From an uncultured Pelagibacteraceae bacterium (GTDB taxonomy: Bacteria; Pseudomonadota; Alphaproteobacteria; Pelagibacterales; Pelagibacteraceae): 64,000 nucleotides of DNA. Shown one piece after another: positions 15,066-33,242 of the stretch (position 1 is the stretch's first letter; each line of letters begins with the position of its first letter). The notes beneath the pieces are model-generated. The model saw only the letters and a program-made list of their open reading frames with translations, was not told the origin of the DNA and searched no databases. A program made the translations under genes and the position numbers. The DNA lies in contig CACDZM010000003.1 in the NCBI GenBank assembly GCA_902557215.1, forward strand, positions 1 to 64,000. The letters run 5' to 3'.

Positions 15066-15071
15066 AAATTA

Positions 15072-15096
15072 CTTGCGGAGAAGTTATCTCCGCAAG
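15072..15096. terminator. Perfect 10-bp GC-rich hairpin between convergent genes; likely hsp20 terminator
   Basis: cttgcggaga-agtta-tctccgcaag; T-run follows on the minus strand (taattttt). Confidence 0.75.
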
Positions 15097-15106
15097 CAAG
15101 GTATAT

Positions 15107-15553
15107 TTATTTTATATCAATAAGTTTTTTCTTTTTATGCTCTGGAACAATTCTTTCACAAGATATTGTTAAAAGACCATCTTTTAACTCTGCACCATTT
15201 ACTTTTACATCATCAGCTATAGTAAATGATCTAGCAAATTGTCTTTGAGAAATACCTTTATGAATTATTTCTCCATCAGCATTATTATTTTCTAATTTAT
15301 TAACTTGTTTAGTTCTTACAGTTAATAAATTATCCTCAAACTCAACTTCAACATCGTTTTTATTAAAACCAGCTAAAGCAACTTCGATTGCATAATTATC
15401 CTTACCAGTTTTTCTGATGTTATAAGGTGGGTAGTTTGACTGCATAGTCAAAGAACCATTACCAAGCATATTTTCAAATTGATCAAACATATCATCAAAA
15501 CCAATTGAAAAAGGTCTTAGTGAGTTGAATATAGATAAATCCTTACTTGTCAT
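15107..15553 (-). CDS. Small heat shock protein, Hsp20/IbpA family
   Basis: NIRKTGKDNYAIEVALAGFNKNDVEVEFEDNLLTV; GISQRQFARSFTIADDV. Confidence 0.95.
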   Translation of the reverse strand: MTSKDLSIFNSLRPFSIGFDDMFDQFENMLGNGSLTMQSNYPPYNIRKTGKDNYAIEVALAGFNKNDVEVEFEDNLLTVRTKQVNKLENNNADGEIIHKGISQRQFARSFTIADDVKVNGAELKDGLLTISCERIVPEHKKKKLIDIK

Positions 15554-15611
15554 AATATCCTCCTTTGTTAAGCAAGTTTATTTATTGTTAGCCCCATTAG
15601 GCGACCAACAA
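15554..15611 (-). promoter_or_regulatory. Putative ROSE-like RNA thermometer in hsp20 5'UTR
   Basis: Minus strand: TTGCT-taacaa-AGGAGG places UUGCU opposite the SD; second hairpin TTGTTGGTC...GGCTAACAA at 15585-15611. Confidence 0.6.
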
Positions 15612-15616
15612 TATGT

Positions 15617-15644
15617 ATATGGGAGTAATTTATTTTTTTTCAAG
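15617..15644 (-). promoter_or_regulatory. RpoH (sigma-32)-type promoter for hsp20
   Basis: Minus strand CTTGAAA-N13-TCCCATAT, near-match to heat-shock consensus. Confidence 0.75.
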
Positions 15645-32897: not shown

Positions 32898-33188
32898 TTA
32901 TTTGCTTGAAATACCCATAATGTCTGATTCTTTCATTATGCTGTATTCTTTGCCATCAATTTTGACTTCGGTTCCTGACCATTTGCCAAACAAAACTTTA
33001 TCTCCGACTTTTACATCCATTGGTATCGTTTTGCCGTCTTCAGTTTTTGCACCACCACCAACAGCAACCACTTTGCCTTCTTGAGGTTTTTCCTGTGCCG
33101 TATCAGGTATGATTATTCCACCGGCAGTTTTTTCGCTACTGTCTAAAACTTCTATTAAAACTCTATCGTGTAACGGTCTAAATTTCAT
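32898..33188 (-). CDS. groES: Co-chaperonin GroES
   Basis: [44 protein letters not shown]. Confidence 0.99.
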
Positions 33189-33214
33189 AAATTCTCCTTA
33201 TTAATATGATCTTC

Positions 33215-33242
33215 ATATAGAGATTGGCCTTACTATTTCAAG
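33215..33242 (-). promoter_or_regulatory. RpoH-type promoter for groES-groEL
   Basis: Minus strand CTTGAAA-N13-CTCTATAT; also fits alphaproteobacterial CTTG-N17-yYTATNT form. Confidence 0.7.

Follow-up and report, generated by a model that had tools for sequence, protein, structure and literature searches.

A probable short ROSE-type RNA thermometer in the hsp20 leader of SAR11 bacteria, with ROSE-like leaders on phage hsp20 genes

Introduction

SAR11 bacteria possess few regulators, and the locus described here raises the question of whether the mRNA of their small heat shock gene hsp20 might itself respond to temperature. Among the aerobic heterotrophs of marine surface waters these bacteria dominate, and neither hsp20 nor thermometers are mentioned in the main text of a published screen of Pelagibacter ubique for structured RNAs (PMC2704228). 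In Pseudomonas, the small heat shock gene ibpA is preceded by a short ROSE-like thermometer of two hairpins and about 62 nt that has been proven experimentally, and in which hairpin 2 melts while hairpin 1 stays stable (PMC3669281). The hsp20 gene studied lies in a stretch of 64,000 nucleotides from a Pelagibacteraceae genome, analysed as a whole and called the window in the following. A sequence-only reading of this window had proposed a compact ROSE-like thermometer in the hsp20 leader and knew of no thermometer described for the lineage; the open-access literature likewise yielded none for SAR11, with subscription journals largely outside our search.

Results and Discussion

Promoter and architecture of the hsp20 leader

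The leader of hsp20 comprises 56-58 nt of the minus strand (about 15611-15554), close to the length of about 57 nt claimed earlier, and contains two hairpins. The features of the locus are the following.

15638 to 15644, minus strand: RpoH (sigma-32) type -35 element CTTGAAA, identified from the sequence, its recurrence in the family and the presence of rpoH in the genome
15616 to 15623, minus strand: -10 element CCCATATA, identified from the sequence, with a 14-nt spacer to the -35 element that is kept in the family
15585 to 15611, minus strand: hairpin 1, with outer stem, bulged G15602, CC/GG inner stem and loop UAAU, from folding and covariation
15559 to 15576, minus strand: hairpin 2, from C15576 to G15559, from folds and the alignment to Rfam ROSE_3
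15571 to 15575, minus strand: anti-Shine-Dalgarno (anti-SD) strand UUGCU, the U(U/C)GCU motif of ROSE elements, from the sequence and family conservation
15570 to 15565, minus strand: loop UAACAA between UUGCU and AGGAGG, from the sequence
15559 to 15564, minus strand: Shine-Dalgarno (SD) sequence AGGAGG, from the sequence
15553 to 15551, minus strand: start codon ATG of hsp20, from the sequence
15107 to 15553, minus strand: hsp20 coding sequence of 148 amino acids (PF00011, E 1.3e-17), the gene under the proposed control of the leader
15069 to 15099, minus strand: intrinsic terminator 3' of hsp20 (1 found, 0.3 expected)

A sigma-32-type promoter, with both elements and their spacing, recurs at 133 of 157 family leaders, and this genome encodes an RpoH that scores above the curated cut-off. 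As the -10 element ends 4-6 nt short of hairpin 1, transcription is predicted to begin at the foot of this hairpin, at about 15611-15609. The family-conserved arrangement of CTTGAAA, 14 nt and -10 element thus places +1 where the sequence-only reading had expected it, and not downstream of the hairpins, a position that had been named as speaking against a thermometer. The terminator behind hsp20 suggests a single-gene transcript.

In hairpin 2, CUU-G-CUU pairs with AAG-G-AGG, leaving a G opposite a G and a loop AACA, and the computed stability is about -3.1 kcal/mol at 37 °C. Compared with dinucleotide shuffles, the 61-nt leader fold gave z = -3.5, and in comparison with shuffles the hairpins folded alone gave z = -4.3 for hairpin 1 and z = -2.7 for hairpin 2. 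The described arrangement of UUGCU facing AGGAGG across a 6-nt loop is borne out by sequence and coordinates. The upstream stem that had also been noticed is real, as the strong covariation reported below indicates; its conserved bulged G (15602), however, had been overlooked.

ViennaRNA calculations of SD opening with temperature gave no separation between native UUGCU and versions scrambled in place; as the melting curves do not discriminate, they were left out of the evidence. The cost of opening the ribosome-binding site (RBS) of hsp20 ranks 7 of 46 and is only moderately above that of other genes in the window. When longer segments are folded, codons 3-4 can take the place of the SD as partner of the anti-SD strand.

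Conservation and covariation among SAR11 leaders

Within the window, TTGCT followed by GGAG occurs at chance frequency (3 seen, 2.6 expected), so that the case depends on comparative evidence; a search for the UUGCU-SD combination by itself was dropped as uninformative for the same reason. This chance frequency, and the lack of distinctive melting in the energy models, are what would be expected if an ordinary stable 5' hairpin had been joined by a fortuitous UUGCU and temperature control came from the sigma-32 promoter alone. We consider this explanation very unlikely, because the motif recurs far too regularly elsewhere. We recovered hsp20 from 83 of 101 genomes of the genus and from 77 of 118 genomes sampled from the family, and U(U/C)GCU together with the SD (GGAG) is retained in 158 of 159 family leaders and in none of the mononucleotide shuffles, with U at the variable base in 154 and C in 4. 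The loss of TTGCT in related genomes, which the sequence-only reading had held to be damaging to its proposal, is therefore not what is seen. The motif also occurs in other Alphaproteobacteria and in phages (see below), in the latter at 22 of 24 leaders compared with 1.1% expected from shuffles.

For hairpin 1, pairing is maintained at 98.8% across 56 diverse leaders, with changes on both sides at 8 of the 9 pairs, and the covariation score of 0.50 exceeds that of shuffled (0.27) and slid (at most 0.16) controls. A tree of the Hsp20 proteins provides a reference independent of the leader sequence; mapped on it, hairpin 1 requires at least 41 independent compensatory changes and slid pairs require 3-13. 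For hairpin 2, the proposed sensor, no covariation was detected among family leaders, owing to the fact that both strands are nearly invariant. The covariation anticipated across SAR11 leaders is thus strong for the first hairpin and lacking for the second.

These data also bear on the idea that the leader serves chiefly to bind a regulator, for instance in a self-repression by Hsp20, where temperature would act through protein titration and not through RNA melting. There is precedent in the gammaproteobacteria, where E. coli IbpA represses its own translation via the ibpA 5' UTR (PMC10474464), and the conserved loop and hairpin 1 could serve as recognition features. However, the sequence of hairpin 1 varies freely while its pairs are kept, which suggests that shape matters over sequence, and we regard such a site as the main function of the leader as unlikely. 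Regulator binding and RNA melting can coexist.

The MAFFT alignment of the leaders (A1) shifts ACUUGCUUAAC against ACCUUGCUAAC by one base; because of this misregistration it was used for hairpin 1 alone, and a subset (A2) served for a covariance model (R1). With this model built from the leaders, the window leader scores 74.7 bits, a search of the genome returned one significant site (next best E 2.9), and 142 of 198 genomes of the order are matched, or 133 of 149 among those of good quality.

In one genome (G098, contig C13), hsp20 is present twice on the same contig, at a distance of 5.4 kb and with identical leaders (L052 and L053), either through a recent duplication or as an assembly artefact. 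In another single genome, a distant hsp20 paralogue (L162; 34% identical) has neither hairpin 1 nor the U(U/C)GCU motif.

Similarity to known ROSE elements

The search with Rfam ROSE models that had been suggested for this leader gave a mixed answer. ROSE_3 (RF02523) is the best-scoring RNA family at the site, but its 22.1 bits lie under the gathering cut-off of 43, as do the 35.1 bits of the best relative (L009; E 0.00095 in a search of 35 kb with all families). The second family, ROSE (RF00435), reaches 19.7 bits against a cut-off of 45, and 30 model positions are deleted in its alignment. As all scores are below the cut-offs, we assign the leader to neither RF02523 nor RF00435 and place it in the wider ROSE-like class. 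The features of that class are present: an imperfect predicted pairing of U(U/C)GCU with the SD (G opposite G) in the 3'-proximal hairpin, at least one stable upstream hairpin (hairpin 1), and a position in the leader of a small heat shock gene behind a sigma-32-type promoter.

With the Pseudomonas ibpA thermometer, the SAR11 leader has in common a 5' UTR of about 60 nt, two hairpins of which the first is stable, U(U/C)GCU opposite the SD in hairpin 2, a sigma-32 promoter and a small heat shock gene downstream. Unlike it, the SAR11 leader belongs to a different bacterial class, is AT-rich, has a bulged G in hairpin 1 and is followed by frozen complementary codons 2-4. RF02523 presents the same order of a stem with 5' bulge and then a U(U/C)GCU-SD hairpin, whereas in SAR11 hairpin 2 is shorter, the linker is AT-rich and the score stays under the 43-bit cut-off. 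The 19.7-bit alignment to the classical rhizobial ROSE (RF00435) covers the hairpin I core GCC-UUAU-GG as well as the UUGCU-SD hairpin; the rhizobial element, however, has three to four hairpins where SAR11 has two, and its middle 30 model positions are without counterpart. The leader is therefore shorter than textbook ROSE elements, as had been remarked, although the short two-hairpin form as such was already known from Pseudomonas ibpA and RF02523. On account of these precedents, it does not form a new class of thermometer.

Hairpin 1 covariation, the retained U(U/C)GCU, ROSE_3 as best family and the fitting promoter together support the original candidate, and we conclude that the SAR11 hsp20 mRNA probably bears a short ROSE-type RNA thermometer. 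The assignment to the ROSE type is made by sequence, structure, gene and promoter; the thermosensing we infer. By this scheme, transcription from the sigma-32 promoter would begin at the base of the stable hairpin 1, which with its bulged G probably organises and protects the 5' end, by analogy with Pseudomonas. At normal sea temperature, UUGCU would pair imperfectly with the SD, with G opposite G, and keep ribosomes off; upon warming, the weak hairpin 2 would melt and Hsp20 would be translated. The scheme presumes the melting, a control at the level of translation and the range of temperatures in which these would operate physiologically. If it is true, a conserved thermometer in nearly all sampled SAR11 would constitute a direct temperature sensor in a group central to questions of ocean warming.

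Other SAR11 and alphaproteobacterial leaders

The hsp20 leaders of a second SAR11 family (L277-L306) show a diverged compact ROSE-like form that is mostly missed by the R1 model. It consists of GCUUA-G-CUC...GAG-UAAGC with a bulged G, followed by UAAUCGCUUAAGGAGGAUUA, and its anti-SD motif is UCGCU. Compact two-hairpin hsp20 leaders are also found in several other alphaproteobacterial lineages (L260-L264, L268). Among the matches listed in a pattern scan of genome contigs, the few inspected from outside SAR11 were without an hsp20 reading frame.

Constrained codons at the start of hsp20

An unusual constraint concerns the first codons behind the start codon.

15542 to 15550, minus strand: hsp20 codons 2-4, ACA AGT AAG, constrained at the synonymous level in 133 relatives

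Among 103 conserved degenerate codons in 133 orthologues, codons 2-4 are the only three at which one codon exceeds 97%, although AGT and AAG of codons 3-4 are minority codons within hsp20. The control genes hpt, groES and groEL exhibited no comparable freezing at minority codons, and they favour AAA at conserved early lysines. A competing helix of 7 bp could form between AAGUAAG (15548-15542) and CUUGCUU (15576-15570); its calculated stability is similar to, or slightly above, that of the ROSE hairpin (-4.4 vs -3.3 kcal/mol at 35 °C). Such a 7-bp complementarity to the anti-SD strand (AAGUAAG or AGUAAGG) is present in 125 of the 133 orthologues, and its mean length of 6.9 bp falls to 3.6 bp after synonymous recoding. 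With the native codons, the RBS is computed to be more closed than with synonymous recodings, by a factor of about 4 to 20 that varies with temperature and fold length.

All of this would be expected if the sensor were not, or not solely, the ROSE hairpin and if in the main clade the anti-SD strand paired with codons 3-5, clamping the start region; UUGCU would then be held fixed by two partners, as a double lock or a bistable switch. We consider this somewhat doubtful. The codon complementarity is missing from diverged family members, the second SAR11 family and the UCGCU lineages, all of which retain U(U/C)GCU, so that we read it as a clade-specific addition and not as the cause of the motif. 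Moreover, AGC would pair better than AGT, yet never occurs, the computed temperature response is not clearly steeper with native than with recoded codons, and the invariant strands leave no covariation. Next to a ROSE-type hairpin as the common element, codon pairing may supply a further lock in this clade, or act as a competitor. We discarded the possibility that codons 3-4 pair with CUUAC of hairpin 1, because the sequence of this hairpin varies and the codons do not.

The meningococcal fHbp thermosensor, which contains anti-RBS sequences inside the coding region (PMC4999090), is similar in that coding-region bases able to pair with the leader may aid control. However, fHbp is without U(U/C)GCU, and the predicted partner of the coding bases in SAR11 is the anti-SD strand and not the RBS.

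ROSE-like leaders on phage hsp20 genes

Pelagiphages also encode hsp20, and their leaders show the two hairpins, the bulged G and U(U/C)GCU; the two-hairpin layout is likewise found in cyanophages, a methylophage and one uncharacterised phage.

L429-L434, L436, L437 and L439-L452: phage hsp20 leaders of compact ROSE-like form

The carriers include the pelagiphages HTVC008M, Mosig, HTVC103P and HTVC115P, many cyanophages and the methylophage Melnitz-1. In a sample of 24 phage leaders, hand-picked for diversity and not a census, the bulged-G hairpin is present in 23 (3.8% expected from shuffles), and the U(U/C)GCU motif is absent from two, S-TIM5 and Vibrio phage PWH3a-P1. For two phage leaders, ROSE_3 was the best Rfam family, at sub-threshold scores of 34.1 and 27.9 bits. 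A T4-late-like TTAAATA or ATAAATA lies 2-5 nt upstream at 14 of the 24 leaders. That the promoter differs in phages while the leader persists argues that the leader works at the RNA level.

A tentative reading, to which we give somewhat less than an even chance as a whole, joins two proposals: that a cassette of thermometer and hsp20 circulates in the ocean among SAR11 and T4-like phages under differing promoters, and that the main clade possesses a two-lock thermometer operating via codons 3-5. The phage hosts would be SAR11, cyanobacteria and methylotrophs, and the promoter would be of sigma-32 type in the host and T4-late-like in many phages. ROSE-like leaders on most of the sampled phage hsp20 genes suggest that phages may bring heat-gated chaperone translation with them. 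No ROSE element of marine phages was found in the open-access literature, subscription journals being largely outside the search, and a second codon lock together with phage-borne thermometers could raise the novelty of the system.

A leader inspected alongside was that of groES (about 33186-33225, minus strand; also L193-L222), which has a short inverted repeat (TATATGAAnnnCATATT) directly 5' of the SD that is conserved in many relatives.
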